In this document: in pieces, positions 21,058 through 59,177 of the stretch
How the letters are laid out: each line of letters begins with the position of its first letter
How positions within the stretch are numbered: position 1 is the stretch's first letter
Source of the DNA: Halomicrobium zhouii
GTDB lineage: Archaea > Halobacteriota > Halobacteria > Halobacteriales > Haloarculaceae
DNA: 64,000 bases
Assembly: GCF_900114435.1 (NCBI RefSeq)
Contig: NZ_FOZK01000002.1
Coordinates: 992,001 to 1,056,000, forward strand
Direction of reading: 5' to 3'
Position numbers and translations under genes: made by a program
The notes under the pieces: generated by a model
The model's database searches: none
What the model was told of the DNA's origin: nothing
What the model saw: only the letters and a program-made list of their open reading frames with translations

Positions 21058-21173
21058 ACACCTCGAAAGCCCCGACGCGCTCCGGTCCCGCGGACGCACT
21101 GCGCTCCTCGGCTTCGCCTGCGGTGCTTGCGCGTCCGGGGTTCCCGGACCGCGTCGCCCCTTTCAGTCCACCC
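21058..21173 (-). repeat. Dispersed hairpin element, copy 1
   Basis: Read on the minus strand it begins GGGTGGACTGAAAGGGGC and ends GGGGCTTTCGAGGTG. These are the two conserved ends shared with four other copies in this window. The centre is GC-rich with short imperfect palindromes. Lies head to head with copy 2 in the gap between the Nmad3-like gene and lysA. No ORF of note inside. Confidence 0.65.
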
Positions 21174-21198
21174 GTCTCTCCCGACCAATCAGCCGACC

Positions 21199-21376
21199 CG
21201 GGTGGGAATGAAAGGGGCCGTGCTCTGCGGGAACCCCGGCGTTCGCAAGAGCGAAGCTCTTGCGCAGCCCATCAGAAATCTTCGATTTCTGAGGACGACG
21301 TAAGGACCGCAGCGAACGCAGTGAGCGAGGACCACAGCGAGCCGCGGGACCGCAGAGCACGGGGGCTTTCGAGATG
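21199..21376 (+). repeat. Dispersed hairpin element, copy 2
   Basis: Begins GGGTGGGAATGAAAGGGGC and ends GGGGGCTTTCGAGATG. The centre carries two perfect hairpins: GCAAGAGC-GAA-GCTCTTGC (21245-21263) and CAGAAATC-TTC-GATTTCTG (21273-21291). It then has a run of GAGCGA-type half palindromes. The 178-nt length and hairpins would suit a structured RNA or a non-autonomous mobile repeat. Confidence 0.65.
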
Positions 21377-21387
21377 CTCGCGGTAAC

Positions 21388-22212
21388 TCACCCGACGGTA
21401 GTGCGCACTCGGGAAACATCGTCGGTCGCACTCTGGACGAATTCCAGAAAGGCCTCCGAATCCACGTCACACCGGACGGCGGGCTTGAATCCGCCGAGGT
21501 GGCAGCCATCGGCGCCACTCCGGCAGGGGCTCAGTTCCGATTCGACGCCGTCGTCCATGTAGTAGTTCGGGCCGCGACGGCTGTCGCTGAGTCGAATCGC
21601 CCTTTCGAGCAGCCCACCCGGTTCTTCCCCGGGGACGATAACCACCGGATCCATTCGGTCAGTAAACTCCGGGTCGTGGTAGTACAGGTCGCCGTGGGCG
21701 GCGAAGCGCTTGGCGTGGGCGTTCTCCGGATGATTCTCCAGCACGGCGCGCTTGGCGTCGAGGTCGTCGTCTGGTTCCAGAACCACGGGCCGCTCCGCGA
21801 CGGTGAAGTAGCCGAACAGGTAGCGGTGTTTGTACTCGCTTTCGGGCCCCGGAAAACCGGCGTAGAACGCGACGACGTCGCCCGGGTCGAGGTCGCGGAG
21901 CGCGGCGACGTAGGCCGGCCGGTGTTCGCCGTAGGTCAGTGCGTCGAGGTTCGGGTCGCGGTGGACGGGTTGACTCGCGATGGCGTCCGGATCGGTCACC
22001 CAGTCGCCGTCGCTCCCCGGTCGGACGCCGTCGAGAATCGCGGCGAGCGGACCGTCGCTGAATCGACTGTCGAGCGACCCGTAGGTCGCCGCCTCCGTGG
22101 TCGGGCCTTTCTCCGGAATCGGGACGTACTCGAATCGCCCGTCACTGTCGACTTTCGGGACTGGCCGGACGTTGCCGGTGTCGGCGCCGACGCCGCAGAG
22201 AACGACGGTCAA
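21388..22212 (-). CDS. Nmad3-like protein (nucleotide modification associated domain 3)
   Basis: 274 residues. The N-terminus reads VLCGVGADTGNVRP...DGRFEYVPIPE, then TYGSLDSRF, later HRDPNLDALTYG and DLDPGDVVAFYAGF, an arrangement I associate with the Nmad3 family. That family was predicted from gene neighbourhoods to act with modified nucleotides; its biochemical activity is not established to my knowledge. The C-terminal third is haloarchaeal and has a Cys/His pair (PCRSGADGCHLGG). It starts 10 nt downstream of dapD on the same strand, so it is probably cotranscribed with the lysine genes, to which it has no obvious link. Confidence 0.65.
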   Translation of the reverse strand: MTVVLCGVGADTGNVRPVPKVDSDGRFEYVPIPEKGPTTEAATYGSLDSRFSDGPLAAILDGVRPGSDGDWVTDPDAIASQPVHRDPNLDALTYGEHRPAYVAALRDLDPGDVVAFYAGFPGPESEYKHRYLFGYFTVAERPVVLEPDDDLDAKRAVLENHPENAHAKRFAAHGDLYYHDPEFTDRMDPVVIVPGEEPGGLLERAIRLSDSRRGPNYYMDDGVESELSPCRSGADGCHLGGFKPAVRCDVDSEAFLEFVQSATDDVSRVRTTVG

Positions 22213-22222
22213 TTGCGGGAGA

Positions 22223-23053
22223 CTACTCCCGGAGCGCGTCCTCGCGCTCGGTCGCTTCCAGCGTCTGTTCCTCGACGTCCGTCGCGACCACGGCGGGCTT
22301 GTAGGCGCCGCCGTCGAACAGGTCGTGGTCCGAGACGCTGGACTCGACGAAGCGGGTGAACGCGCGGCGCTCCGGCGGCAGTTCGCCGTAGATCACTTCC
22401 TCTTCGACGAGGTCGTAGATGGGGATGCGGGGCGTGAGGAGGGTGTTCTCGCCGACGACGGAGTTCTCGCCGACGACGAAGCCCGAAGTGACCCGGCAGC
22501 CCGCGCCGAGCGAGACGCCGTCCTCGACGATGACCGGGGCGTCCTCGACCGGTTCGAGGACGCCGCCGATGAGCGTGTTGGCGCCGAGTTTGACGTCGTC
22601 GCCGATCTGGGCGCAGGAACCCACGGTGTCGCAGGAGTCGACGAGTGTGCCATCGCCGACGTAGGCGCCGATGTTGACGAAGGCGGGGGACATGAGGATG
22701 GCGTCACTACCCACGTAGGCGCCCCGGCGGATGACGGTCCCGTCCGGCGTGTTTCGCGTCCCGCGCTCGTTCAGGTCCGCCGTCTCGCGGAGCGGGAGGA
22801 CGTCGTGGTAGGTGACGTCGCCGTAGGTCCGGGCCTCGGTCTCGCGCAGGCCGAAGTTGAGCAGGATACCCTGCTTGACCCACTCGTTGGCCTCCCAGCC
22901 GTCGCTTCCCTTCTCCGCGGCGCGGACCTCGCCCGCTTCGAGGGCTTCGAGGAACTCGTCGAGGACCGCGAGGTGGTCGTCGGTCGCGTCGGCGGCGGTC
23001 AGGCCGTCCTGTTTGCGCTGCCAGAGGTCGCTGACGTCTGCTTCGAGGCTCAT
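22223..23053 (-). CDS. dapD: Tetrahydrodipicolinate N-succinyltransferase
   Basis: 276 residues. Transfers succinyl from succinyl-CoA to tetrahydrodipicolinate in the succinylase branch of lysine/DAP synthesis. The C-terminal two thirds are a left-handed beta-helix of hexapeptide repeats (for example IRRGAYVGSDAILMSPAFV and VGSCAQIGDDVKLGANTLI), preceded by an alpha-helical N-domain. Start at ATG 23053, overlapping the dapB stop by 4 nt (ATGA). The usual length and position after dapB make the assignment firm. Confidence 0.93.
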   Translation of the reverse strand: MSLEADVSDLWQRKQDGLTAADATDDHLAVLDEFLEALEAGEVRAAEKGSDGWEANEWVKQGILLNFGLRETEARTYGDVTYHDVLPLRETADLNERGTRNTPDGTVIRRGAYVGSDAILMSPAFVNIGAYVGDGTLVDSCDTVGSCAQIGDDVKLGANTLIGGVLEPVEDAPVIVEDGVSLGAGCRVTSGFVVGENSVVGENTLLTPRIPIYDLVEEEVIYGELPPERRAFTRFVESSVSDHDLFDGGAYKPAVVATDVEEQTLEATEREDALRE

Positions 23054-23811
23054 GTGTCGTCGATGACTTCCCCGAATGAATACCATTCCGGATCCTTCCC
23101 GGCGAGCCAGGTGGCGGCGTCGAGCGCACCGGCGGCGAACACCCCTCTATCCTCCGCCCGGTGGGACAGCGAGACCACCTCGTCGTTGCCTGCCAGGACG
23201 AGTTCGTGTTCGCCGCGGATATCCCCCGCACGCCGCGCGAACACGCCGATCTCGTCCTCCTGACGGGGGGCGTGACCCTCGCGACCGTAGACGGGTTCGA
23301 CGTCGCGTTCTTCCTGAATCGTCTCGAGGATGGTGTTGGCAGTCCCCGAGGGCGCGTCGATCTTCTGGTTGTGGTGAGTCTCCATCAGTTCGAGGTCGTA
23401 GTCCGGGAGCGCGGAGACGGCCTCGCCGATGGTCCTGAGGAGCACCTGGATGCCGCGGGAGAAGTTGGTCGCCTTGAGCACCGGGACGTCCTGGCTGGCC
23501 GACCGGAGCGAGGCCATCCCGCCGGAGTCGAAGCCCGTCGTCCCGACGACCATGCCGACGCCGGCGTCGACGCAGGCGTCCGCGAGCGCGAGCGTCGACT
23601 CGGGAACGGTGAAGTCGATCACGACCTGCGGTTCGTGCTCGGCGAGGCCGTCCGCGAGGTCGTCGGCGTGGAAGATGGGGACCCCCTGGATGTCGTCGAC
23701 GTCGTCGACGTGGAACCCAACGACGACGTCGAAGTCGTCACGCGCGCTCGCGGCCTCGATGACGGCCCGGCCCATCCGGCCGGCCGCGCCGTTGACCGCG
23801 ATGCGCGTCAT
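23050..23811 (-). CDS. dapB: 4-hydroxy-tetrahydrodipicolinate reductase
   Basis: 253 residues. NAD(P)H-dependent second committed step of lysine synthesis. Rossmann loop VNGAAGRMGRAVIE at the N-terminus; VVGTTGF cofactor motif; catalytic ETHHNQKIDAPSGTA at about residue 145. Overlaps dapA upstream and dapD downstream by 4 nt each (ATGA), so dapA-dapB-dapD are translationally coupled. Confidence 0.95.
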   Translation of the reverse strand: MTRIAVNGAAGRMGRAVIEAASARDDFDVVVGFHVDDVDDIQGVPIFHADDLADGLAEHEPQVVIDFTVPESTLALADACVDAGVGMVVGTTGFDSGGMASLRSASQDVPVLKATNFSRGIQVLLRTIGEAVSALPDYDLELMETHHNQKIDAPSGTANTILETIQEERDVEPVYGREGHAPRQEDEIGVFARRAGDIRGEHELVLAGNDEVVSLSHRAEDRGVFAAGALDAATWLAGKDPEWYSFGEVIDDT

Positions 23812-24734
23812 CGCTCGACCTCCGCGAAGGCGTCCTCACCGTCCGGGTTTTCGAGTTCCGCGAGGATCGATTCGAGGTCGTCGAGGTACTCATCGCTCAG
23901 GCGGGAGAGCGGCTGGCGGACGTGCGCGGGGCCGTAGCCGCGGATCCGCATCGCCTCCTTCACCGGGATGGGGTTGGTCTCGACGAAGAGCCCGCGGAAC
24001 AGCGGCCCGAGCTCGTGGTGCAGGTTCCGGGCGCGCTCGTAGTCCTCGGAGAGGGCGGCACCGACCATCGCGCAGGTGCGTTCCGGCTCGACGTTGGCGG
24101 CGACGCTGATACAGCCGTGGGCGCCAACCGAGAGCATCGGGAGGGTCATCCCGTCATCGCCGGAGAGGACCGAGAAGTCTGCCTCGCGCGTGCGTTCGAT
24201 GATCTCCGATATCTGGTTCATGTCGCCACTGGCGGCCTTGTAGCCCAGAATACTGGGGTGGCTCGCGAGTTCGACGGCCGTGTCGGGTTCGATATTCTGA
24301 CCCGTGCGCGAGGGAACGTTGTAGACGATCTGTGGGCAGTCTACCTCGTCTGCGATGGTCTCGAAGTGATCGACGAGGCCGCGCTGTTCGGGCCTGTTGT
24401 AGTACGGCGAGATGAGGAGCAGGGCGTCGGCACCGGCGTCGGCGGCGCGCTGGGAGAGCGAGAGCGCTTCGCGAGTGTTGTTCGATCCGGTGCCGGCGAC
24501 GACGGGTACGTCGTCGACCGAATCGACGACTGCCTCGACGACCTCGACGTGCTCGTCGTGGGTCAGCGTCGCCGACTCGCCGGTGGAGCCGACGGGGACG
24601 AGGCCGTCGACGCCCGCGGCTTCGAGGCGCTGGGCGTCCTCTCGGAGGGTTTCGAAGTCGATGCTGCGGTCCGCGTCGTCGTGGAACGGCGTGCACATCG
24701 CGGGGAACACGCCGGTGAGGTCGATTGCTGTCAT
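23808..24734 (-). CDS. dapA: 4-hydroxy-tetrahydrodipicolinate synthase
   Basis: 308 residues. Condenses pyruvate with aspartate semialdehyde, the first step towards DAP/lysine. TIM-barrel with VGSTGESATL (GxTGE motif), the YYNRP catalytic tyrosine segment, RTGQNI and the Schiff-base lysine in ILGYKAASGD. Promoter-proximal gene of the lysine cluster. The 410-nt region upstream (24735-25145) contains only a possible 28-codon ORF. Confidence 0.95.
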   Translation of the reverse strand: MTAIDLTGVFPAMCTPFHDDADRSIDFETLREDAQRLEAAGVDGLVPVGSTGESATLTHDEHVEVVEAVVDSVDDVPVVAGTGSNNTREALSLSQRAADAGADALLLISPYYNRPEQRGLVDHFETIADEVDCPQIVYNVPSRTGQNIEPDTAVELASHPSILGYKAASGDMNQISEIIERTREADFSVLSGDDGMTLPMLSVGAHGCISVAANVEPERTCAMVGAALSEDYERARNLHHELGPLFRGLFVETNPIPVKEAMRIRGYGPAHVRQPLSRLSDEYLDDLESILAELENPDGEDAFAEVER

Positions 24735-24875
24735 GTGAGTGGTCGCTGGTCTGTTGTGGGTGAGTCTGCGCGCGATGCAAAAATGACTGCCGTTCGGCCG
24801 GCGGGAGACGGCTCCGTCACTCGAACGGCAGGATTCCGGGCCCGTGACGGGGTCGCTACGCCCGCCGCGAGCCGC

Positions 24876-24962
24876 TCAGAATGGAAGTTTCGGCTTGGCC
24901 TTGGTGGCCGCTACGGACGCACCGCTCGTCGAATCGCGACGGGTGGGTGCGTTCCGGGTCAT
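24876..24962 (-). CDS. Possible 28-residue leader peptide upstream of dapA
   Basis: ATG at 24962 opens 28 codons ending TKAKPKLPF. The peptide is basic with three lysines among its last eight residues, which is unusual in an acidic haloarchaeal proteome. It lies 141 nt upstream of dapA on the same strand. It may be a real microprotein, a leader peptide, or chance; no Shine-Dalgarno or convincing TATA decides it. The remainder of 24735-25145 shows no other feature I can support, apart from the TTAACC-containing AT patch near 25115, just upstream of the divergent NYN gene. Confidence 0.25.
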   Translation of the reverse strand: MTRNAPTRRDSTSGASVAATKAKPKLPF

Positions 24963-25145
24963 TGCACGAAATAGATCAGTGGAGCGTCTTAGTGCTTGCG
25001 TTCCACGGGGAGTGGCGTTCACGCCTGTCGCCGCGGACGTGCGCACCCCTGGGGATGCGCTGACGCCTCCGTGCTGACAGTTTCGTCGGCGCTGGGCGGC
25101 GCTGGACCCCGAAAAATTAACCGGACAGGGGTCACACGAACGTGC

Positions 25146-25643
25146 ATGCCTGTTACGCACCCGACCCAACGGGTGGGCGTCCTCGCGGACGCGCAGAACC
25201 TCTATCACACGGCTCGGAGTCTCTACTCTCGCAATATCGACTACAGCTCGCTTCTGGAGGGCGCCCTCGACGGCCGGGAACTCACGCGCGCGATCGCCTA
25301 CGTCATCCGGGCGAACTCGCCGGAGGAAGAGAGCTTCTTCGAGGCGCTCGTCGACATCGGCTTCGAGACGCGCGTCAAGGACATCAAGACGTTCGAGGAC
25401 GGCTCGAAGAAGGCCGACTGGGACGTCGGGATGAGCCTCGACGCCGTCTCGCTGGCGCCCCACGTCGACACGATCATCCTCTGTACGGGCGACGGCGACT
25501 TCGCCCGCCTCTGTCGCTACCTGCGCCACGAGGGCTGTCGCGTCGAGGCGATGAGCTTCGCCGAGTCCACCTCCGAGGAACTCGTCGAGGCGGCCGACAG
25601 CTTCGAGAACCTCAGCGAGAACGAAGACACGTACCTGCTGTAG
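25146..25643 (+). CDS. NYN-domain (LabA/DUF88-type) protein
   Basis: 165 residues from MPVTHPTQRVG. NYN/PIN-like nuclease fold: LADAQNLYHTAR contains the first conserved Asp and Asn, KKADWDVGMSLDAVS the central Asp cluster, and LCTGDGDFARLCRYLR the third acidic motif. Such proteins are predicted Mg-dependent RNases; the family member LabA acts in cyanobacterial regulation. An AAAAATTAACC box lies about 25-32 nt upstream, so a leaderless mRNA is likely. Divergent from the lysine cluster. Confidence 0.87.
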   Translation: MPVTHPTQRVGVLADAQNLYHTARSLYSRNIDYSSLLEGALDGRELTRAIAYVIRANSPEEESFFEALVDIGFETRVKDIKTFEDGSKKADWDVGMSLDAVSLAPHVDTIILCTGDGDFARLCRYLRHEGCRVEAMSFAESTSEELVEAADSFENLSENEDTYLL

Positions 25644-25683
25644 CCACTCGCGAAATCGGGCTCGAAAGAACGAAGAGACGGTT

Positions 25684-25866
25684 TCAGACCGGGCGAGCGT
25701 CTTCGGACGTGCCGACGAGCAGCGCGCCGGCGGCAAGTCCGAGCGCGGCGAGCGATCCGAGAACCGGCGGCAATCCGCTCCCGAGCTGTCCCGTACCGAG
25801 GATGATGGCCGTACTCGCGACGAGCAGGAGGACGCCGACTGCGACTTTTCGCGTATCCGTTGCCAT
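25684..25866 (-). CDS. Small membrane protein, two TM helices
   Basis: 60 residues from MATDTRKVAVGVLLLVAS. Two hydrophobic helices (VAVGVLLLVASTAIILG and PVLGSLAALGLAAGALLVG) separated by a Gly/Pro turn, then a short acidic tail. An AAATTTATACC box on the minus strand (about 25890-25900) lies 24-34 nt before the ATG, supporting this start over the in-frame ATG 16 codons upstream. No family recognised. Confidence 0.6.
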   Translation of the reverse strand: MATDTRKVAVGVLLLVASTAIILGTGQLGSGLPPVLGSLAALGLAAGALLVGTSEDARPV

Positions 25867-26017
25867 GTCGGCCAAAGGTAATCGGTCGTCCGGTATAAAT
25901 TTCTCCAAATCCAACGGGGATAAACGCGATCGATCGTTATCGTTTTCGACCGAGGGGTTTCTGCGAGTCCGTCCGCGGTTGGTGACGCTTTTGGTTCCGG
26001 GTCGTCAGCATCAGTTG

Positions 26018-26494
26018 ATGACCGACGCCGAGGCCACGCTGTTACGCCGCGCCGCCGACTACCAGTTCGGCCGCGGCGGCGGCGCGGCCCTGTTTGACGA
26101 CCTCGAATCGCTGTCCGTGACCCGGACCAGCTCCGGCCGACCGCGACAGGTCACGGCCGAGGACGGCCGCCTGGTCAGCTACGGCAACGACGGCCGCTTC
26201 ACGCTCGGTATCGACGGCGGTCGGCGGCTCCACGAGGCCTTCGAGGCGCCGCGCAACCGCGTCGTCGTCGGCGACGAGAGCGAGCCGTTCGTTCGCGACG
26301 GGCGCAACGTCTTCGCGAAGTTCGTCGACGAGGCCGACGACGAGATACGGCCGGGTGACGAGGTGCTCGTCGTCCACGAGGACGGCCGCCTCCTCGCAGT
26401 GGGCAGGACGGAACTGTCCGGGGACGGCATGCGAGCGTTCGAGACGGGGATGGCCGTGAAAGTCCGGGATACCGTCGGCGAAGACGGCGAGTAA
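26018..26494 (+). CDS. PUA-domain protein (first gene of NAC operon)
   Basis: 158 residues. The C-terminal about 80 residues form a PUA RNA-binding domain ([28 protein letters not shown], then [24 protein letters not shown]). The N-terminal part is the conserved archaeal pre-PUA region. Followed after 73 nt by NAC and the tRNA m1A methyltransferase, an arrangement frequently seen in archaea and suggesting a role in tRNA or ribosome maturation. Start ATG 26018 avoids a long spurious upstream frame. Confidence 0.85.
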
Positions 26495-26567
26495 CTGGGA
26501 CGAGACTGGTCTGTGCGGTACACGGCAAAGGGGAGAGCTTTTTGGGACGGAAGGCCCAGGTTGGGCT

Positions 26568-26972
26568 ATGTTTGGAGGAGGCGGCGGCGGACTCAATCCG
26601 CGCAAGATGAAGCAGATGATGGAACAGATGGGCATCGATATGGAGGATATCGACGCCGAGGAAGTGATCATCCGGACCCCCGACGAGGAGCTGTACTTCA
26701 CCGACGCGGAGGTCCAGCTCATGGAGGCCCAGGGCCAGAAGACCTACCAGGTCGTCGGCGACCCGGAGAGCCGCGAACGCGGCGCCGACTCGGGCGGCGA
26801 GTCAGCGTCGGGCGACGCCGGGAGCGCTGAGGCCGGTGGCGACGCCGGCGGCATTCCCGACGACGACGTCGAACTCGTCGCGATGCGGGCCGGCGTCGGC
26901 GAAGACGCGGCGCGCGAAGCCCTCGAGGAGGCCGACGGTGACCTCGCGGCCGCCGTCGAGCGGCTAGAGTGA
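26568..26972 (+). CDS. nac: Nascent polypeptide-associated complex protein
   Basis: 134 residues. Archaeal NAC homodimer binds nascent chains at the ribosome exit tunnel. Glycine-rich start [24 protein letters not shown] beta-barrel ([20 protein letters not shown]), an acidic Ser/Gly/Asp linker (about 65-95), and a C-terminal UBA domain ([20 protein letters not shown]). A GAGAGCTTTTTGGG box about 30 nt upstream fits a promoter of its own. Stop overlaps the next start (GTGA). Confidence 0.95.
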
Positions 26973-27700
26973 GCTACCTGTTCGTCCGCGAGGACCGCGA
27001 GTACCTGCTAGCCCCGGGCGACACGCTGGAGTCTGACCTGGGCATCCTGGAGGTGCCCGAGGACGTCGAACCCGGCGACACCGTCGAGACGCATCTCGAC
27101 ACCGAGTTCCGGGTCCGGAAGCTCCGCGGCCCGGACCTTTTCAACCACCTGGAGCGGACGGGCGCGCCGATGATGCCACGCGACATCGGCCTCGTCGTCG
27201 GCCAGACTGGCCTGCAATCGGGCGACCGGGTCCTCGACGCGGGGACCGGCACCGGCGTCCTGTCGGCGTACCTCGGGCGCATCGGCGCGCGCGTGACGAC
27301 GTACGAAGCCGATGCGGACTTCGCCGACGTCGCTCGCGAGAACATGGCGCTGGCCGGCGTCGAGGAGGCCGTCGAGGTGCGCCACGGCGACGTAACCGAC
27401 GAACTCCCGACGCTGACCGAGGGCGAGCGCTTCGACGTCCTGACCCTCGACACCGCCGACGCGGCGGCCGTGGTCGAACGCGCGCCCGACCTGCTGGTCT
27501 CGGGCGGCTACGTCGCCGTCTACTCGCCGTTCGTCGAACAGGCCCGAGAAGCAGTCGAGGCGGCGCGGGCGGCCGGCCTCGAAGACCCAGAGACGCTGGA
27601 GACCATCCAGCGCGAGATGGACGTCGGTGACCGCGGCACACGGCCCTCGACCCGCGGCGTCGGCCACACCGGTTATCTCACGTTCGCTCGGCGGGAGTGA
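26969..27700 (+). CDS. trmI: tRNA (adenine-N1)-methyltransferase, TrmI type
   Basis: 243 residues from GTG 26969, overlapping the nac stop by 4 nt. An N-terminal beta domain (ships with [13 protein letters not shown]) is followed by the SAM-binding domain: [32 protein letters not shown] and [17 protein letters not shown]. Archaeal TrmI methylates A57/A58 of tRNA. The G-T-G-T-G motif and size are typical. Coupling to nac and the PUA gene indicates one operon. Confidence 0.88.
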
Positions 27701-27739
27701 GGCCTTCTTCGGTCTCCCGGCCCCTTCGTAGTCGGACAG

Positions 27740-28357
27740 TTAAGAGACGTCTCTCATCAGTTCTAGCAGTTCGCGTCTGTACGTCACGACGTCGCGCTGG
27801 AGTACCGGTGGCGGGTCGTCGAGTCCGAGCACCGCCCCTATCGGTCGTTCGGGGTAGGCGCCGCCACTGACGAGAAACCCGTCGTCGTACCAGACCCCGA
27901 GCCACCCTCCGAGCGGGACCGTCACGGCCGGCGTCTCGAGTTCCAGCGCGGCCTCGAACCGGCTCAGCGGCACTCGCTTCTCGTACCCAATCCGCCGCCG
28001 TTCCGTCCGGACTCGCTCGACGTCGGTGAGGCCGCTCTCCTGAAGCGTCGACCGGAAGCGATCTGTGGCTCGCGCGCGGACGACCGGCAGGAGAAACGCA
28101 CGACTCGCGGTGGGTGGGACTTCCGGCTCGAACGAGAGTGCGGTCGCGAAGAAGAAGCGCCACGTCGCCTCGACGGCTGCGGTCTCGGCAATTGCTGTCG
28201 ACGTGGCGTCGTCCCGATACTGCAGCGTCGCCCCTCGAACGCTGACGCCCGGGAGTTCGAACACGGTTTCGACCGTTTTCCCGGACTGGACCCAGCCGCC
28301 AGCGTCGAGTCTATCGCGCGGCACTGTCGGGAACGAGACCGACTCGCTCCCCGTCAC
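27740..28357 (-). CDS. Conserved haloarchaeal protein downstream of tfs
   Basis: 205 residues from GTG 28357, six nt after the tfs stop, so probably cotranscribed with the RNA cleavage factor gene. Mostly beta-strand-like sequence with paired Trp/Tyr (WLGVWYDDGFLVSGGAYP) and an Arg-rich centre (VERVRTERRRIGYEKRVP). No TM helices, no recognisable family or active-site motif. Confidence 0.65.
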   Translation of the reverse strand: MTGSESVSFPTVPRDRLDAGGWVQSGKTVETVFELPGVSVRGATLQYRDDATSTAIAETAAVEATWRFFFATALSFEPEVPPTASRAFLLPVVRARATDRFRSTLQESGLTDVERVRTERRRIGYEKRVPLSRFEAALELETPAVTVPLGGWLGVWYDDGFLVSGGAYPERPIGAVLGLDDPPPVLQRDVVTYRRELLELMRDVS

Positions 28358-28363
28358 GACCGG

Positions 28364-28687: not shown

Positions 28688-28714
28688 GTTGTCACTCGTA
28701 TACGCCGCCGGTGT

Positions 28715-28722
28715 AATTTAAA
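28715..28722 (-). promoter_or_regulatory. TATA box of tfs
   Basis: AT-rich octamer reading CTTTAAAT on the minus strand, 28-35 nt before the tfs ATG, the normal distance for a haloarchaeal leaderless promoter. Confidence 0.6.
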
Positions 28723-28731
28723 GACAGGGAT

Positions 28732-29655: not shown

Positions 29656-29791
29656 GGGCGCGTCTTTCGGTTCGACACCCAAAACAATGCGTCAGACGAC
29701 CGTCGGACGGGGAGGCGATCCAGTGGCGACGACGACTGGCCAGGGCTACGGTCGGCCAGTCATCGTGATAATCAGCTAATGGACCATCCAA

Positions 29792-29828
29792 GCGGGTGGG
29801 AATGAAAGGGCCGGGGCTTTCGAAGTGT
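29792..29828 (+). repeat. Dispersed hairpin element, copy 3 (ends only)
   Basis: A 37-nt minimal version: GCGGGTGGGAATGAAAGGG joined directly to CCGGGGCTTTCGAAGTG, with the whole hairpin centre missing. It shows that the two conserved ends belong to one unit. Located 84 nt before the DUF5789-like gene. Confidence 0.65.
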
Positions 29829-30202: not shown

Positions 30203-30277
30203 GACACGGAACCCGACCATCGACCGGCGACCGCCCCACCGACCAGCTTTTTCTCGCGCGGCACTGTATCGTCAGTC

Positions 30278-51700: not shown

Positions 51701-52129
51701 ATGATACGAGGGGAGTTCCCGGACGCAGGCGAGCGGACGCCCGAAGAGCTACGGCGCGGGTACGAGGCCCTGCTCGCCGAGACGATAGAGAAGGTCGGCA
51801 TCGAGACGGTCGCCGAGGAGACTGCGCTGGACAGCGAAACCGTCGAGTCGCTCGAGGCGGGGGACTCCCCCGAGGTCACACTCGAGGGGGCGGCGGCCGT
51901 GCTCGCGCTCGCCGAGGACCGGCCGCCGGCCGACGCCGTCGCGGCGGAGGCCCGTGACATCCTCCTCATGGGGATGACGACGGCGGTGCTCGACGTTGAG
52001 ACGCTCGCCTCCGGGGTCGACGGCGCCCTCGAACCCAAGGAGATCCAGCAGAAGGTCGAGGGTCGGTTTCCGATGACGCTGGCGGAGTACGCCCTGCTTC
52101 ACCAGTACATCGAGCAGCGGAAGGGCTGA
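51701..52129 (+). CDS. DUF5791-like haloarchaeal protein
   Basis: 142 residues from MIRGEFPDAGERTPEELRRG. Helical and acidic, with ETVAEETALDSETVESLEAGDSPE looking like a short helix-turn-helix and a C-terminal helical bundle (LAEYALLHQYIEQR). Matches the haloarchaeal DUF5791 family from memory; possibly DNA-binding. Two nt before the SDR gene, so probably cotranscribed. Confidence 0.75.
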   Translation: MIRGEFPDAGERTPEELRRGYEALLAETIEKVGIETVAEETALDSETVESLEAGDSPEVTLEGAAAVLALAEDRPPADAVAAEARDILLMGMTTAVLDVETLASGVDGALEPKEIQQKVEGRFPMTLAEYALLHQYIEQRKG

Positions 52130-52131
52130 TC

Positions 52132-53025
52132 ATGCGCGTCGCGATACTGGGCTGTGGCTACGTCGGGCTCGAACTGTGCCGCCAGCTCGCGGACCGAGGC
52201 CACGACGTCGTCGGCGTGCGACGTTCGGCGACGGGCGTCGAGGCCGTCGAGGACGCCGGTGGCGTGGGCGTCCAGGCCGACGTCACCGAACCTGACTCGC
52301 TGGAATCGGTGCCCGACGCCGACGCGCTCGTCTTCGCCGCGAGTTCGGGTGGCCGCGGGGCCGAGGCGGCCCGCGAAATCTACGTCGAGGGGCTGCGGAC
52401 CACTATCGACCACTTCGGCGCGCGTGACGGCGCCCCGGACCGACTGGTGTACACGTCGAGTACGGGCGTCTACGGCGACCACGACGGCGACTGGGTCGAC
52501 GAGGAGACGCCGCTCGATCCGACCACCGAGAAGACCCGCGTCCTCGCGGAGGCCGAACGGGTGGCACGAGAGGGGGCTGCGGAGTGGGGCATCGACGGAA
52601 CTGTCGCCCGCTATGCCGGGCTCTACGGGCCCGACAGGTATCGCCTCGACCGGTATCTGGACGGGCCGGTTACGGAGGGGTACCTCAACATGGTCCACCG
52701 CGACGACGCCGCCGGGGCGGTCCGGTACCTGCTGACCGAGGACCTGGCGCGCGACGACGTCGTCCTCGTGGTGGACGACGAACCCGTCGAGAAGTGGGCC
52801 TTCGCCGACTGGCTGGCCGACGAGTGCGGCGTGGACCGTCCCCCGAAACGGACGAAGGCAGCGCGACTCGCGGACGGTGACCTCTCGGACGCGGCGCGCC
52901 GTCGCATCGAGACGAGCAAGCGGTGTTCGAACGAGCGACTCCGTGATCTGGGGTACGAGTACCGCTTCCCGACGTTTCGCGAGGGATACCGGGCGGCGAT
53001 CGATGCCTACGTCGCTGGCGGATAA
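52132..53025 (+). CDS. NAD(P)-dependent epimerase/dehydratase (extended SDR)
   Basis: 297 residues. Rossmann loop AILGCGYVGLELCRQLADRG at the N-terminus, catalytic YTSSTGVYGDHDGDWV. The expected Y-x3-K is replaced by TTEKTRVLAEAE, so the catalytic tyrosine/lysine pair is unclear and the enzyme may be an atypical (YeeZ-like) SDR. Substrate unknown, possibly a sugar nucleotide. Confidence 0.82.
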   Translation: MRVAILGCGYVGLELCRQLADRGHDVVGVRRSATGVEAVEDAGGVGVQADVTEPDSLESVPDADALVFAASSGGRGAEAAREIYVEGLRTTIDHFGARDGAPDRLVYTSSTGVYGDHDGDWVDEETPLDPTTEKTRVLAEAERVAREGAAEWGIDGTVARYAGLYGPDRYRLDRYLDGPVTEGYLNMVHRDDAAGAVRYLLTEDLARDDVVLVVDDEPVEKWAFADWLADECGVDRPPKRTKAARLADGDLSDAARRRIETSKRCSNERLRDLGYEYRFPTFREGYRAAIDAYVAGG

Positions 53026-53201
53026 CCGGATTCGACCGGGCGAACAGCTACGACGCGAACCAGTGTCGGTTCCGGCGCAGTCCCGTATCCATTCTGACCC
53101 GACGGACCTGAAACCGCACGAGGGGAAGTCGGTCGAGGGGAGATCGTTCCGTTCGACTGAGTGGGGAACCTTCATGGTCGTCGGGGTCAACTCTCTCGCG
53201 T

Positions 53202-54395
53202 ATGTCGCCTAGGGCTGTGGGGTCCCTCCAGGACGTGATCGACGCACTCGCGCCGGTCATCCCCGAGTCACCGCTGGAAGTCGCGGCCATCTTCGTCGCG
53301 CTGGTACTCGTACTGGCGGGACTCCGCTGGCTCGTCGATTACCTGCGTTCGACGCCTGCCGAGCTCCTCCGCGAGACACTCGCCGGGCACGACCGGGTCT
53401 CCGTGCTGATGCATCCGAACCCGGATCCGGACGCGATGTCGTCGGCGCTGGCCGTCGGCGAACTCGCCGAGACCGTCGACACGGAGGCGACGCTCAACTA
53501 TCCCGGCCAGATCCGTCATCAGGAGAACCGCGCGTTCGAGACCGTCCTCGACGTCGACTTCGAACAGATCGACAGCGCCGGCGAACTCGACGGCGACGCC
53601 GTCGTTCTGGTCGACCACAACGAGGCTCGCGGATTCCCCGGCGCCGAGGGTGTCGATCCGGTCGCCGTCATCGACCACCACCCTGGTGACGGCGAAGGCG
53701 CCGAGTTCACGGACGTCAGGGCCGACCACGGCGCCTGTGCCACCATCTTCGCCGAGTACTTCGAGACGCTCGGCTGGGAACCGGAGAAGCCCGGTGCCGA
53801 CGAGAACGGCGACGACTCGGGCGAGGACGACGGGGACGGACTCCCCACCCAGCTGGCGACCGGGCTCCTCTACGGCATCCAGTCAGACACCAAACAGCTC
53901 ACCAAGGGCTGTTCGCCCGCGGAGTTCCACGCCGCAGAGTACCTGTACGCGGGAATCGACGAGGACCGCCTCGACCGCATCGCCAACCCGCAGGTCGACG
54001 CCGAAGTGCTCGACGTGAAGGCCCGCGCCATCACCAGCCGGACGGTCCGCAACGCCTTCGCGGTCAGCGACGTCGGCGAGGTGTCGAACGTCGACGCCAT
54101 CCCGCAGGCCGCCGACGAACTGATGAAACTCGAGGGCGTCACCGCCGTGGTCGTCCTCGGCGAGAAGGACGGGACGCTCCACCTCTCCGGGCGCTCCCGG
54201 GACGACCGCGTTCACATGGGGAAGGTCCTCGACAGCGTCGTCGACGACATCCCGATGGGGACCGCCGGCGGCCACGCCCGCATGGGCGGCGGTCAGCTCT
54301 CCATCGAGCACATGGAAGGCATCGGCCCGAGCGAGGGTGTCCTCCGGCAGGACTTCACCGAGCGACTCTTCGACGCCATGTCGGGCGACATCTAG
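53202..54395 (+). CDS. Membrane-anchored DHH/DHHA1 phosphoesterase
   Basis: 397 residues. One N-terminal TM helix (about 25-45, VAAIFVALVLVLAGLRWLVD) and then a DHH phosphoesterase: HPNPDPDAMSSALA (first metal motif), VVLVDHNEARG (D-H-N in place of the D-H-H in one motif), VAVIDHHPGDGEG (the DHH motif). The C-terminal DHHA1 substrate domain ends GGHARMGGGQLSIEHM. Family includes NrnA oligoribonuclease and c-di-AMP phosphodiesterases such as GdpP. Substrate not predictable, but the membrane anchor fits a signalling enzyme. Confidence 0.87.
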   Translation: MSPRAVGSLQDVIDALAPVIPESPLEVAAIFVALVLVLAGLRWLVDYLRSTPAELLRETLAGHDRVSVLMHPNPDPDAMSSALAVGELAETVDTEATLNYPGQIRHQENRAFETVLDVDFEQIDSAGELDGDAVVLVDHNEARGFPGAEGVDPVAVIDHHPGDGEGAEFTDVRADHGACATIFAEYFETLGWEPEKPGADENGDDSGEDDGDGLPTQLATGLLYGIQSDTKQLTKGCSPAEFHAAEYLYAGIDEDRLDRIANPQVDAEVLDVKARAITSRTVRNAFAVSDVGEVSNVDAIPQAADELMKLEGVTAVVVLGEKDGTLHLSGRSRDDRVHMGKVLDSVVDDIPMGTAGGHARMGGGQLSIEHMEGIGPSEGVLRQDFTERLFDAMSGDI

Positions 54396-54462
54396 ACGCT
54401 CGTTCGGTCCGGCGTCGCTCCGAGTACCAGCAGTTTTCAGGTCGAGCGTCCAAGCCTCCGGT

Positions 54463-55548
54463 ATGGCCACGCAGACGGCGACCTGGGCGTACCGCGACGA
54501 CCACGACGGGTTCGCCCGCACCTTCTTCCGCCGGTACGCCGATTGCGTCGTCTCCAGCATCGGCGTCGGCACGTACCTCGGCGACCCGACCGACGAACAG
54601 GACGAGCGTTACCACGACGCCATCGTCGAGGCGCTGGAATCCGGTATCAACGTCGTCGACACGGCGATAAACTACCGGAACCAGCGCTCCGAACGCGTCG
54701 TCGGCGACGCCGTCCGGGACGCCGATATCGACCGGGAGGTGGCGCTCGTCGCGACGAAGGGCGGGTTCGTTCCCTTCGACGGCGATCGGCCGGCTGATCC
54801 CGGTCGGTACGTCCTGGAGGAGTACGTCGAGCCGGGTATCGTCGACCGCGAGGACCTGGCGCGCGGGCAACACGCAATCGCGCCGGGGTTCGTCGACGAC
54901 CAGCTGGACCGGTCGCTGTCGAACCTCGAACTGGAGACGATCGACCTCTACTACGTCCACAACCCCGAGACGCAACTCGCCGAGCGGTCGGCCGAGGCGG
55001 TGTACGACCAGCTCGAAGCGACCTTCGAGCGACTGGAGGAACGCGTCTCCGAGGGTGATATCCGCCACTACGGCGTCGCGACGTGGGAGGCATTCCGGGT
55101 CCCCGAGGACCACGACAGCTACCTCTCCCTGCCGGAGGTCGTCCGGCGCGCTCGCTCGGCGGCCGATGCGGCCGGCGCCGACGCGACCCACTTCCGGGCG
55201 ATTCAGCTCCCCTTCAACGTGCAGATGGCCGACGCGTTCACCGTCGAAGCCCACCAGGGACCGGACGGCCCGCAGTCGGCCCTCGAGTTCGCCCACGAGG
55301 CGGGCATCGACGTGTTCACCAGCGCGTCGATGCTGCAGGGACGACTCGCCGACGGACTTCCCCAGGACGTCGCGGCGAAGCTCTCGGGCGAGACGAGCGC
55401 CCAGCGGGCGATCAACTTCGCCCGGAGCGCACCGGGGGTCACCTCGTCGCTCGTCGGGATGGGGTCGCCAGAACACGTCGCCGAGAACGTCGCGGCGGGG
55501 ACCTACGAGCCCCTGGGCGCCGGTGCGTTCGACTCGGTGTTCGAGTGA
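54463..55548 (+). CDS. Aldo/keto reductase
   Basis: 361 residues. (beta/alpha)8 NADPH-dependent oxidoreductase. Catalytic tetrad candidates: Asp and Tyr in NVVDTAINYRNQRSERVVG, Lys in LVATKGGFVPF, His in LYYVHNPETQL. GMGSPEHVAENVAAG near the C-terminus is the cofactor-phosphate loop. Substrate unknown. Start ATG 54463 follows a long spurious upstream frame that overlaps the DHH gene. Confidence 0.88.
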   Translation: MATQTATWAYRDDHDGFARTFFRRYADCVVSSIGVGTYLGDPTDEQDERYHDAIVEALESGINVVDTAINYRNQRSERVVGDAVRDADIDREVALVATKGGFVPFDGDRPADPGRYVLEEYVEPGIVDREDLARGQHAIAPGFVDDQLDRSLSNLELETIDLYYVHNPETQLAERSAEAVYDQLEATFERLEERVSEGDIRHYGVATWEAFRVPEDHDSYLSLPEVVRRARSAADAAGADATHFRAIQLPFNVQMADAFTVEAHQGPDGPQSALEFAHEAGIDVFTSASMLQGRLADGLPQDVAAKLSGETSAQRAINFARSAPGVTSSLVGMGSPEHVAENVAAGTYEPLGAGAFDSVFE

Positions 55549-55639
55549 GGACGTGAAGAGCGGGAGGGGAAAATCCGGGGCGGACCGTTCGGCAGCACAG
55601 TCGGTTCGATGGGACGGAAGGAGGGCGTCGACGGGCCAG

Positions 55640-55810
55640 TCAGCCGACTTCCTTCCACTCCGTGCCGCACTCGGGACAGACGCGGACCTTGCCAACCTGG
55701 TCCGGGTCGTTCTCCGTTGCGAGCGCCTCCTCGCAGTCGGCGCAGGCCAGGCGCTCGTAGGTGTCCTTCTCGATATCCCCTGCCCGGAGCCCCTTGCGCA
55801 CAGATTTCAT
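55640..55810 (-). CDS. Zinc-finger microprotein (HVO_0758 family)
   Basis: 56 residues, MKSVRKGLRAGDIEKDTYER followed by LACADCEEAL and VCPECGTEWKEVG, a C-x2-C...C-x2-C zinc ribbon. The pattern matches the small haloarchaeal HVO_0758-type zinc-finger proteins, several of which are important for growth or biofilm in Haloferax. It is too short for most gene finders and is hidden in a longer reading frame that extends upstream. Confidence 0.8.
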   Translation of the reverse strand: MKSVRKGLRAGDIEKDTYERLACADCEEALATENDPDQVGKVRVCPECGTEWKEVG

Positions 55811-55964
55811 AGCCAAGCTTGCGAGACCATCGCATAAAAAGGTCGCGGCGATCTGGTCGGTCAGGAAGCACGTCGTCGGACTGCCGTCTGCCGGGCCGCG
55901 AGCCCGTCCGCGCACCGTGGTCGGAACGGGAGGTTTTTGCCCGCGCTCGCGCAACCCGCGGCCG

Positions 55965-57080
55965 ATGGAGTACGTCCAGGAGCGGATCGCGACGCTCCAC
56001 GACTTCGACGGGACCGTGCCGGCCGCCCCCACCGACCGGGCCGCCGTCGTCGTCCCCCTCACGGAGCGGGACCACGCCAGCCTCGCCGCCGAACGCGTCT
56101 TCTCGCGGCTCGAACGGGTCGACCCCGCGCGCGTGTACGTCGCCCTGCGGGCCGCGCCGGGCCAGCTCCGCGACGTCGTCCGGTGGGTCGACAGCTTCGA
56201 CCTCGAGGGGGAGGTGCTGTGGTGCAACGCGCCGGCGGTCGAGTCCCGCCTCGACGAGCGCGGACTGGGCGGGGACGCGGGGAAGGGGCGAGACCCAGGA
56301 AAGGGACGGGACGTCTGGCTGGCGCTGGGCGTCGCCGCGCGCCACGACTACGTCGTCGTCCACGACGCGGACGCGACGACGTACTCCGTGGCCCACGTGC
56401 CGAAACTCCTCTTCCCGCTGGCCAACGGCTTCCAGTTCTCCAAGGGGTACTACGCCCGCGTGGAGAACGGGCGACTCTACGGCCGCCTCTTCCGGCTGTT
56501 CGTCCGGCCGCTGCTCCGGGCGCTCGACGCGGAGACCGACCACCTGCTCGTCGACTACCTGCTGGCGTTTCGCTACGCGCTGGCCGGCGAGTTCGCCGCG
56601 ACGAGCGAGGTGGTCCGCTCGCTCCGCGTCCAGCCCGGCTGGGGCCTGGAGATCGGGACGCTCGGTGACGCCTTCGACGCGGCGGGCTTCGAGGGTTCTG
56701 CGCAGGTCGACCTCGGGACCCACGAGCACGACCACCGCGCCGTCGGCGGGCCGGAGGGGCTGGGCGACATGTGCGCCGAGGTCGGCGCGGCGCTGTTCCG
56801 CGCCCTCGCCGAGCGCGGCGTCGACCTGGACTACGACGCGCTGTCGGCCGCATACCGCGACGTCGCCCGGGCGACTATCGACCAGTACGCCGCCGACGCG
56901 GCGTTCAACGGCCTGGCGTACGATCCGTCTGGCGAGCGCGACCAGGTCGACCAGTACGCCGCCGCGGTCCGGGCGCCGGGCGAGGACCGACGCCTGCCCG
57001 CCTGGAACGACTGCGAACTCGACCCGGAGACCGTTCGCGAGTTGTCGAATGGAGCCATCGACGAGGCGACGGCCGACTAG
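55965..57080 (+). CDS. Glycosyltransferase, glucosyl-3-phosphoglycerate synthase-like
   Basis: 371 residues from MEYVQERIATLHDFDG. GT-A fold: AVVVPLTERDHASLAAERVF at the start binds the nucleotide sugar, VVVHDADATTYSVAHV carries the D-x-D metal site, and the later GWGLEIGTLGDAFDAAGF and HDHRAVGGPEGLGDM are typical of the glucosyl/mannosyl-3-phosphoglycerate synthase group. These make charged compatible solutes. Substrate pair not proven by sequence. Confidence 0.8.
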   Translation: MEYVQERIATLHDFDGTVPAAPTDRAAVVVPLTERDHASLAAERVFSRLERVDPARVYVALRAAPGQLRDVVRWVDSFDLEGEVLWCNAPAVESRLDERGLGGDAGKGRDPGKGRDVWLALGVAARHDYVVVHDADATTYSVAHVPKLLFPLANGFQFSKGYYARVENGRLYGRLFRLFVRPLLRALDAETDHLLVDYLLAFRYALAGEFAATSEVVRSLRVQPGWGLEIGTLGDAFDAAGFEGSAQVDLGTHEHDHRAVGGPEGLGDMCAEVGAALFRALAERGVDLDYDALSAAYRDVARATIDQYAADAAFNGLAYDPSGERDQVDQYAAAVRAPGEDRRLPAWNDCELDPETVRELSNGAIDEATAD

Positions 57081-57097
57081 CCGGTGGCGGTCGACTG

Positions 57098-57127
57098 GCA
57101 CTATTCACTGTTGCACTATTCACTGTT
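57098..57127. repeat. Perfect 15-bp tandem duplication
   Basis: GCACTATTCACTGTT twice in a row, 17 nt after the glycosyltransferase stop. AT-richer than the surroundings and otherwise unexplained. Confidence 0.7.
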
Positions 57128-57265
57128 GGTAACAGGTTCGCGAGCCGAACGGCCCGGAGGAACGCTGTGGGAGGAATTCACGGGAGAAATTGCAGCACGC
57201 GAACGGTTTTCACGGGACGCCGACTCACGCAACCTTCATAATCTCCCCGCGACCATATGCTGGTA

Positions 57266-57379
57266 ATGAAACAAGACCACTACACGTGTGCGAACTGCGG
57301 CCAGCAGCTGAGCTACCAGACCACCAAGCACAACGGCTGCGCCAACTGCGGCTTCCTGCCCCTCCACGGCGCCGACTGA
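57266..57379 (+). CDS. 37-residue zinc-finger microprotein
   Basis: ATG 57266 opens MKQDHYTCANCGQQLSYQTT and continues KHNGCANCGFLPLHGAD. Two CANCG knuckles make a C-x2-C...C-x2-C zinc site like other haloarchaeal CPxCG-type microproteins. A CTTCATAAT box (about 57233-57241) lies 24-32 nt upstream, consistent with a leaderless mRNA. An in-frame ATG three codons earlier is possible. Too short for standard annotation. Confidence 0.7.
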   Translation: MKQDHYTCANCGQQLSYQTTKHNGCANCGFLPLHGAD

Positions 57380-57529
57380 CGCGCCCGACACCCGCAGTTT
57401 CGAACAGTGCGTCACTCCTCCGGTGCTCACACCGGATCCCGTTTTTCGCGATGCTGGGTCGCTTCGAACACCCCGTCGTCCCGCGAGCCAGACAGAATCC
57501 TCAAGTCCCTCGCCACGAGCCCACTATCC

Positions 57530-58012
57530 ATGGAGGTCACGGCGGACGAACTCGCGGGGGTCGTCGACGTCTTCGGCACGTTGACGCGGTCCGAGCTATC
57601 TGAGGCGCTGTCGGAACTGGCGTTCAAGCGCGCCGACGAACTGGAGCGTCCGGACGACGCCATCGACGACGCCGTCGCCTCGTACCACCTCGTCGGGTAC
57701 GACCACCCCGAGAGCGGTGACGGCGGCGACGCCGAGCGACTGCTCGTCCCGGGTCCGACGGCGTTCCCGGAGATTCCCGAGGGCGGTGCGGACCTGCCCC
57801 ACATCATGGACGTCCCCGAGCGCGACGTCGACCGCGAGGCCCTGACCGCCGCCGTCGCCGACCGCTTCCGGGAGGAGAGCGTCGTCGCGATTCGTAGCGA
57901 CAATCCCGAGTTTATCGACCGCCTGCTCGACGTGAGCTACGAACTGGAGGTGTGGGGTGACGTGGACGTCTCCGGTGCTCGTGATCAGCTGGTCGAGGCG
58001 CAAGAGGAGTAG
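57530..58012 (+). CDS. Conserved haloarchaeal protein (DUF7109-like)
   Basis: 160 residues from MEVTADELAGVVDVFGTLTR. An N-terminal helical segment resembles a winged helix (LTRSELSEALSELAFKRADEL), followed by an acidic middle and a C-terminal domain with ALTAAVADRFREESVVAIRSD. I recall a haloarchaeal DUF of this appearance but do not know a function. Confidence 0.6.
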   Translation: MEVTADELAGVVDVFGTLTRSELSEALSELAFKRADELERPDDAIDDAVASYHLVGYDHPESGDGGDAERLLVPGPTAFPEIPEGGADLPHIMDVPERDVDREALTAAVADRFREESVVAIRSDNPEFIDRLLDVSYELEVWGDVDVSGARDQLVEAQEE

Positions 58013-58060
58013 CCTGCAGGTGAATTTCCGGGGCACTAACGGTAGCTACCGTTCTGACCC

Positions 58061-58180
58061 CCTGGCGGAATGAAAGGGCGAGGGCCGCTCGTCGGCTCCC
58101 GGGCGACGGAAGCACGCGAACGGAGTGAGCGCGCACAGCGAGCCCCGGAGTCACGAGCGACCCGAGGGCTTTCTTCGTCT
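58061..58180 (+). repeat. Dispersed hairpin element, copy 4
   Basis: Left end CCTGGCGGAATGAAAGGGCG, right end CCCGAGGGCTTTCTTCG. The centre has the GAACGGAGTGAGCGCGC type of half palindromes seen in copies 2 and 5. It ends 94 nt before the Nudix gene; copy 5 lies on the far side of that gene in the opposite orientation. Confidence 0.6.
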
Positions 58181-58273
58181 TGCTGTTATTGCTGGCAACC
58201 AATCCGTAGACAGAAGATCCTCCCCCAGAGAGTCCCCGAGCGAATTAAGGCCGTGCCCACCCACGCACTTCGC

Positions 58274-58900
58274 ATGGACTTCGACCGGGTCGCCGACTTC
58301 GACGCGGAGGCGGTCACCGGCGAGGACCGCGAGGCCGCGGTCGTGGTCCCGGTGATCGAACGCGAACCCGGCGAGTACTACGTGCTGTTCACGAAGCGGG
58401 CCGACCACCTGTCGGACCACCCCGGCCAGATGAGCTTCCCCGGCGGCGGCCACGAACCGGAGGACGACGACCTGCTCCGGACCGCGCTCCGGGAGGCGAA
58501 CGAGGAGGTCGGCCTCGACCCCCAGGCCGCCCACGTCGTCGGCCGGCTGGACGACATCCGCACTGTCTCCAACTACTCCGTCCGCCCGTTCGTGGTCCGC
58601 ATTCCTGACCGGGAGTACGTGCCGACTGACGTGGACGAAGTCGCCGAAGTGGTCGTCCTTCCCGTCCGGGAACTGATCGACCACGGGAACTACGAGTCCG
58701 AGCGCCGGGACCACCCCTACTACGGCGACATCCGCCTGCACTTCTTCTACGTCGACGGCTACACCGTCTGGGGCGCGACGGCCCGGATGCTCGTGCAGTT
58801 TCTGGAGCTCGCGACGGACTGGGAGATGCCCCCGGAGCCCGATCGTGTGGCAGGTCCTGACGACGACCTGCCCGAGAGCGTCCGTGATCAGGTCCGCTAG
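58274..58900 (+). CDS. CoA-type Nudix hydrolase
   Basis: 208 residues. Nudix box GGGHEPEDDDLLRTALREAN continues EEVGL; the acidic residue before the TALREAxEE helix is Asp in place of Glu, as in CoA pyrophosphatases of the NudL/PCD1 group. HPGQMSFPGG is the group's UPF0035-like signature. Would hydrolyse CoA or acyl-CoA diphosphate bonds. Bracketed by repeat copies 4 and 5. Confidence 0.88.
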   Translation: MDFDRVADFDAEAVTGEDREAAVVVPVIEREPGEYYVLFTKRADHLSDHPGQMSFPGGGHEPEDDDLLRTALREANEEVGLDPQAAHVVGRLDDIRTVSNYSVRPFVVRIPDREYVPTDVDEVAEVVVLPVRELIDHGNYESERRDHPYYGDIRLHFFYVDGYTVWGATARMLVQFLELATDWEMPPEPDRVAGPDDDLPESVRDQVR

Positions 58901-58946
58901 GAGATTTTGTTACTGGGGAGTGGAGCAGTGAGTCCGCGGTGAGGGG

Positions 58947-59000
58947 CGACGACTGAGAGACGACCACCGACGGAGAGACGACCGACGAAAGAGAGACGAC
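58947..59000. repeat. Three 18-nt tandem units
   Basis: Imperfect units each ending GAGAGACGAC: 58947-58964, 58965-58982 and 58983-59000. They immediately precede repeat copy 5 and lie in the 494-nt gap between the Nudix gene and 59395. Confidence 0.65.
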
Positions 59001-59004
59001 TAAC

Positions 59005-59177
59005 AAGAAAGGGAAGCCCTCGGCCCGCTCGTACTGCCGCGACTCGTTGCGGTCCTCGCCTGGCGGCTGCGGTCCTTACTTCGTCGGGGCGGCGACGAGC
59101 GGAAGGCCGGCTGCGCCGGCCTTCTCTAACTTCGCGGCTCCGCCGCGAAGCGCGCCTCGCCCTTCCAGTCCGCCAGG
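59005..59177 (-). repeat. Dispersed hairpin element, copy 5
   Basis: Read on the minus strand: CCTGGCGGACTGGAAGGGCG at its left end, GCCGAGGGCTTCCCTTTC at its right. Central hairpins GAAGGCCGGC-TGC-GCCGGCCTTC (59102-59124) and CTTCGCGGC-TCC-GCCGCGAAG (59130-59150). Beyond it, 59248-59275 has another GTCGCTCGCC/GGCGAGCGAC hairpin; the rest of the gap to 59394 shows nothing else. Confidence 0.6.

Follow-up and report, generated by a model that had tools for sequence, protein, structure and literature searches.

A widespread haloarchaeal family of intergenic hairpin elements that may be non-autonomous mobile DNA

Five short segments with matching ends are scattered along a 64 kb stretch of the Halomicrobium zhouii genome (hereafter the window: bases 992001-1056000 of contig C2 in a 4.25 Mb genome, G000), which raises the question of whether such elements act as RNA or spread as DNA. 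An initial annotation of the window had described them as 'structured RNAs or non-autonomous mobile repeats'. Both options were apt, and the evidence leans towards mobile hairpin DNA, since the elements are dispersed, intergenic, arranged mostly as head-to-head doublets and part of a duplicated larger unit, and since they show no orientation to genes and the commoner of their two types (type B; the other is type A) lacks a TATA-like box; a role as RNA is the less probable of the two. We infer, with a probability of about 0.52, that the elements are a non-autonomous, hairpin-forming family of mobile DNA, widespread in haloarchaea and an archaeal counterpart of REPINs/BIMEs.

The window was searched with a covariance model, R1, built on alignment A2, in which 26 type-B copies, taken from 58 selected cores, were aligned without structure; 25 of these come from elsewhere and the other is the window copy at 21065-21169, which therefore matches R1 by construction. 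All five annotated copies were recovered and nothing else matched up to E = 1; four matches are clear and the shortest, at 29799-29821, is weak (E 0.021). The annotation had pointed to the right places, with coordinates reaching a few bases beyond the paired core, and the middles that it described as differing do differ in their letters but share one architecture. The ends common to the window copies are GGAMTGAAAGGG ... GGGCTTTC. The copies and their parts are as follows, where G076 is the nearest relative compared (~90% identical to G000):

21065..21169, minus strand: full-length element, left-hand member of a head-to-head pair (R1 84.9 bits; R1 training sequence)
21170..21204, no strand: 35-nt linker joining the members of this pair
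21205..21370, plus strand: right-hand element of the pair, expanded by a nested double hairpin (R1 77.7 bits)
21242..21297, plus strand: nested double-hairpin insert in 21205..21370 (approximate ends, placed by eye against copies without the insert)
29799..29821, plus strand: collapsed copy with both feet present, stem and core gone (R1 20.8 bits, E 0.021)
58067..58173, plus strand: full-length single element, upstream type CCTGG (R1 55.6 bits)
59012..59171 (read by its ends), minus strand: full-length element with the compensated foot helix GGAAG/CTTCC (R1 match 59013-59117)
59098..59148, minus strand: 51-nt nested double-hairpin insert in 59012..59171 (from the alignment with G076; ends ambiguous by a few bases)
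59172..59298, minus strand: remnant of a type-A linker, which normally lies between two head-to-head copies (many further BLAST matches across G000 and G076)

The two copies at 21 kb belong together as a single head-to-head pair. Because G076 has a full 103-nt element between matching flanks at the site of the shortest copy (37 nt as annotated), the latter is an internal-deletion derivative. The copy at 59012-59171, whose ends GGAAG/CTTCC represent a compensated change, is identical to its G076 ortholog at 105/109 aligned bases, and in the alignment the 51-nt insert (59098-59148) is missing from that ortholog. The 58067 copy is not at this site in G076, where ~1.4 kb of other DNA is found, nor is the plus-strand copy of the 21 kb pair, whose site is likewise occupied by other DNA. 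At the site of the pair (L059, ~6500-7940), G076 has kept one element, and ~1.2 kb of apparently coding DNA, which includes a phosphotransferase-like gene (by eye only), replaces the second; the ~1.4 kb at the 58067 site (L057, ~7830-9290) contains internal repeats that resemble a gene for a PQQ/beta-propeller protein (by eye only).

A full element can fold as a long rod-like hairpin, usually 94-118 nt in length (most of the elements fetched first); nested inserts lengthen it, and some copies have collapsed to 23-34 nt. From the outside inwards, the rod comprises an unpaired 5' tail (GGACT or GGAAT), a foot helix P1 of 5 bp (GAAAG/CTTTC), a G-rich loop (GGG/GGG in type B, the longer GGCGA/GAGGG in type A), a helix P2 of 13 bp with letters that are almost free, a small bulge, a helix P3, and an apical core in which conserved AAGCAC ... 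GAGCGCAGCGAG strands surround internal loops. Within a lineage, the foot, 5' tail and loop hardly vary. Sequence immediately upstream is conserved as GGGTG (type B) or CCTGG (type A), and the foot is directly followed by a conserved T-rich tail, GAGGTGTT. A crude classifier applied to 319 distinct cores found 26 with an alternative apical domain and 10 under 60 nt; the interior classes were assigned by a strict regular expression, under which 123/319 cores remained 'other'. In at least 5/319 cores (L011:764, L020:688, L200:2917, L216:284 and L217:7314), the conserved feet enclose an inverted interior.

Some copies contain nested double-hairpin inserts, 50-60 nt long. At L114:2324-2487 and L107:14879-15040 they are modules in which the joints are constant (TCGTTCGA, TCGTGATGACGA, TCGAACCA) and the hairpin arms vary freely; modules of this kind were detected by regular expression in 8/319 cores and are perhaps a second dispersed family. 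The window insert at 59098-59148 is also a double hairpin, with joints other than these three. Some intact elements are followed by tandem copies of the 3' end plus tail, ~55 bp per unit (L008:799-1040 and the G076 counterpart of A256754). An identical 27-nt collapsed form is listed at nine sites of one chromosome in G208 (e.g., C1:527503-527529), which suggests either that deletion between the bases of palindromic stems has recurred or that the short form is itself mobile.

Across copies, structure is kept and letters are not, with compensatory change preserving the pairing. Covariation in the hairpins, which the initial annotation had named as a test, was strong on both A2 and A4, the latter holding 115 matches from 90 loci chosen among those fetched and, being fitted to R1, leaning towards that model. 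In A2, 94.8% of cells pair (34-50% with slid partners), both sides change in 19/29 pairs, and covariation is 0.515 compared with 0.143 after shuffling; in A4, 96.8% of cells pair, both sides change in 23/29 pairs, and the corresponding values are 0.596 and 0.142. Slid-partner controls gave 0.028-0.071, and 0/500 shuffles reached the observed value in either alignment; the copies are related, so these shuffle counts, and the binomial p-value below, are not probabilities. The foot helix in the 115 rows is GAAAG/CTTTC in 102, CAAAG/CTTTG in 7 (G146), GGAAG/CTTCC in 4 (G139 and G218) and CGAAG/CTTCG in 2 (G118), proportions that are meaningless in themselves because most loci were fetched by a pattern fixing GAAAG. 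P1 is nearly fixed in the taxonomic family of the window's genome and has compensated changes elsewhere.

The pairing also bears on which of the two strands is kept. G-U pairs outnumber A-C mismatches by 95 to 27 in A3, an alignment also fitted to R1, and by 96 to 29 in A4; as mutation alone predicts equal frequencies, this excess suggests that the fold of the plus strand is kept, either as RNA or as single-stranded DNA. Columns led by G-U number 12 (A3) and 15 (A4), and those led by A-C 5 in each. The clearest single case is a core pair at column 57 (A3) or 61 (A4), with 39 and 33 U-G, respectively, and no A-C; in 110 A4 rows it is C-G in 65 and U-G in 33. A few palindromic copies with an inverted interior (L011, L020, L150, L216 and L217) stand in A3/A4 on both strands. 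Judged from these alignments, selection likely acts on one particular strand, the plus strand, although most of the excess comes from three columns (see below).

The initial annotation had named a lack of further copies in other haloarchaeal genomes as grounds for rejecting the family; copies are present in many such genomes. In the window's own genome, the left-end pattern GGRMTGAAAGGG occurs 186 times (once for the reversed pattern), and the left end followed within 220 nt by GGGCTTTC also 186 times (control 0). This both-end pattern is present in 88/116 genomes and 21/22 genera of the same taxonomic family, with a control count of 0 in each listed genome; exact-pattern copies number 186 and 224 in two species, and up to ~200 are found per genome. 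Across the order, R1 at E <= 1e-6 detected the elements in 68/117 genomes and 30/48 genera, with counts per genome that are lower bounds (32-150 candidates scored), and in some of these genomes the exact ends are absent and there are many R1 matches with other foot sequences. In a sample of the phylum, R1 matched 13/15 genomes of the order and 0/85 outside it. A pattern scan of named species genomes returned 110 stretches, and the 80 listed comprise 79 with haloarchaeal names, including Haloarcula, Haloferax, Halobacterium, Natrinema, Halonotius, Halomarina, Halogeometricum and Halobellus, plus 'uncultured archaeon A07HN63'. BLAST searches of plasmids with one element and of phages with one pair gave no match, a method that is weak here owing to stem drift.

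The arrangement of copies is far from random. Among the first 100 listed in the own genome, 72 lie in 36 pairs less than 400 bp apart, and 35/36 pairs are head-to-head; in unselected stretches the same orientation was found in 6/6 pairs (440 kb of G000) and 5/6 pairs (448 kb of G076), 11/12 together. Linkers between head-to-head copies are 26-36 nt in type B, and 176-341 nt with hairpins of their own in type A. In agreement with the annotation, by which none of the five overlaps a gene, 0/80 copies with both neighbours in view overlap an open reading frame called by our own codon-usage caller. The 52 intergenic sites of G000 and G076 divide into 33 co-directional, 11 divergent and 8 convergent gaps, compared with 312, 159 and 69 for all gaps >60 bp, and at co-directional genes 28 copies lie on the same strand and 26 on the opposite one, showing no preference. 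TATA-like boxes, as defined by a regular expression of our own, occur at -50 to -10 of 0/222 type-B copies (downstream control 10/222) and 8/80 type-A copies (control 3/80). A transcription terminator or promoter element is disfavoured by this placement and, for type B, by the missing TATA-like boxes.

Between G000 and G076, the comparison of loci covered eight element pairs at seven sites. Four pairs are 92-100% identical (98/98, 100/104, 105/109 and 144/157); the other four are 74-83% alike, the level of unrelated members, and the occupants are different elements in 4/8 pairs (3/7 sites), and a collapsed partner was found at A239277. Within the own genome, a type-A unit (doublet, linker and tails) recurs at two loci ~177 kb apart (90.6% over 523 aligned columns), and is thus a duplication that spans 523 bp or more and whose ends recur. 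No difference separates the two units across one element, the greater part of the linker and one tail, but the other element's tip and one linker hairpin have been exchanged wholesale. The right end of this unit, GATACGTAGCTNANCTGTACTGACC (<=3 mismatches), occurs 14 times in the own genome (control 0); the 10/14 that were read comprise nine element units and one collapsed unit, none of them an autonomous version. No target-site duplication of the kind left by DDE-type MITEs was seen by eye at nine copies of the unit, the ends of which are known to within a few bases only. At A256459 the type-A linker appears inverted relative to its tails (by eye). In G146, from another family of the order, the linker preceding the element (L266-L272) begins near GGTCAGTACAG; judged by eye, this is the right end of the type-A unit in the window's genome, read as its reverse complement.

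The closest analogues are the REPINs/BIMEs of bacteria. REPINs are described as inverted doublets (93% of doublets in strain SBW25), with singles as decayed doublets, and have a hairpin-forming spacer, compensatory changes and an excised form with a 5' tail (PMC3116915). As described there, the likeness extends to an extragenic location, hundreds of copies, inverted pairs (35/36 close pairs here), and a hairpin with conserved feet, a variable spacer, compensatory change and a 5' single-stranded tail, as well as to singles that can be read as decayed pairs. The present elements differ in being confined, in our samples, to one archaeal order, in foot sequences that change between lineages, in their larger rod with its conserved apical core, and in that the association with a Y1 transposase that characterizes RAYT-linked repeats is missing. 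In Haloquadratum walsbyi, SMR-A elements are described as ~110 bp long and conspicuous for the inverted repeats at their termini; they reach 54 copies, show no target duplications, lack an identified mobiliser and insert into PATE and IS605 palindromes (PMC3119063). Compared by that description only, size and terminal inverted repeats agree, and SMR-A elements could be relatives; no preference for PATE/IS605 palindromes was seen among our elements, with insertion points not resolved, and their placement relative to genes is ordinary. This was the only directly relevant paper found in searches of the open-licence literature, in which no description of the element family was encountered; of 97 papers retrieved with the end sequences, the 30 listed include none with a haloarchaeal title. 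Rfam gave 0 matches in the window, and a relaxed search of four loci gave only mir-4433, on both L096 strands, at 42.9 and 38.8 bits, where the gathering score is 77.

Several results weigh against mobile DNA. No transposase could be connected with the family. For Y1_Tnp, the class by which REPINs are mobilised, there is no association: both are present in 38 genomes, the element only in 30, Y1 only in 23 and neither in 26 (117 genomes; Fisher p 0.36). G118, G122, G139, G146, G151, G156, G177 and G208 each have at least 28 scored elements and no Y1_Tnp match, several element-rich genomes without a match being 99% complete, and the left end is missing within 1.5 kb of 8/8 Y1_Tnp loci inspected, out of 15 matches in the genus. 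Clean empty sites were sought without success, the candidates in the comparison of G000 with G076 being blurred by divergence. The conserved apical core exceeds what a REPIN spacer would need, and the four well-conserved element pairs are better conserved than most of their 60-nt flanks (seven of eight at 64-83%, the eighth at 100%), which fits selection on a functional RNA too. Moreover, when the three columns richest in G-U are removed, G-U against A-C falls to 27 to 24 in A3 and 41 to 26 in A4 (p 0.09); as the strand asymmetry rests on few columns, mobile DNA receives less weight and passive copying of palindromes, considered below, more. Y1_Tnp (IS200/RAYT) was rejected as mobiliser, with no association in 7 or in 117 genomes. 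Y2_Tnp (IS91 type) matched 0/117 genomes and also none of the control genomes, and is uninformative.

The strongest competitor, which we nevertheless consider unlikely, is that the elements act as RNA, for instance as a processing or protein-binding site in longer transcripts, and that this structured motif was spread by duplication with the RNA under selection. The apical core with its C-G/U-G pair and no A-C, the conservation of four element pairs beyond most of their flanks, and the T-rich tail GAGGTGTT after the foot all fit such a role; set against it are the TATA-like boxes, missing at type B and found at type A in 8/80 copies against 3/80, the equal frequency of sense and antisense copies at co-directional genes, the copies in divergent and convergent gaps, and the cores with interiors inverted relative to their feet. 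Alternatively, the hairpins could be passive palindromic mosaics, copied, exchanged and restored to perfect pairing by recombination, replication slippage and template switching, with no dedicated enzyme or function. This has a slightly poorer chance than the RNA explanation: wholesale exchange of a tip and a linker hairpin between otherwise near-identical units, sites with different occupants, the inverted-looking linker of A256459 and wobbles that outside three columns favour neither strand clearly are what it would predict, but it does not readily account for a foot, 5' tail and loop that are near-invariant within a lineage, for the head-to-head order, or for the core column with its U-G pairs and no A-C.

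Derivation from IS200/IS605 elements in the manner of PATEs, with the hairpins as near-terminal palindromes, is improbable. A lone right-end octamer, GGGCTTYC, does occur at 4/8 Y1_Tnp loci, in G076 beside a small hairpin, but the left end is missing from all eight and Y1_Tnp shows no association. The GAAT and AAAG of the elements may resemble IS608 guide tetranucleotides. In H. walsbyi, PATEs are common, lack target duplications, undergo core deletions, and in HqIRS46 have palindromes that are direct repeats (PMC3119063). As there described, they resemble the present elements in being haloarchaeal, non-coding, palindrome-bearing and subject to core deletions, and differ in that our doublets are inverted and in that no link to IS605 was found (TnpB loci were not examined). 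Hardly any credence is left for crRNA-like or mini-CRISPR RNAs, which the annotation had suggested from a superficial likeness of GGAATGAAAG to the ends of type I repeats: the copies are dispersed and form no repeat-spacer array of invariant repeats (cas genes were not searched for), and the GAAAG in question is one arm of a covarying helix that changes to CAAAG, CGAAG and GGAAG with a compensating partner.

If the elements are indeed mobile hairpin DNA, a protein would recognise the folded single strand by its foot, tail and loop when this is exposed, e.g., in replication, and would move or exchange hairpins. Deletion of palindromes would then yield singles and short forms, and recombination could swap or invert hairpin tips and interiors, such that letters drift and pairing stays. 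A more specific and distinctly speculative proposal is that haloarchaea possess their own mobility and exchange system for hairpin DNA that operates without Y1 HUH transposases, in which a putative enzyme would recognise the folded single strand by shape, move head-to-head doublets, and swap or invert cassettes, with the foot helix, as the recognition sequence, co-evolving with the enzyme from lineage to lineage.

The intergenic DNA of many haloarchaea thus harbours one structured family without a match in Rfam. It offers an archaeal test case for the spread of hairpin repeats without a known REP transposase, and a large natural set of covarying hairpins. It also calls for caution, as such repeats would mimic conserved non-coding RNAs in RNA searches and comparative genomics.

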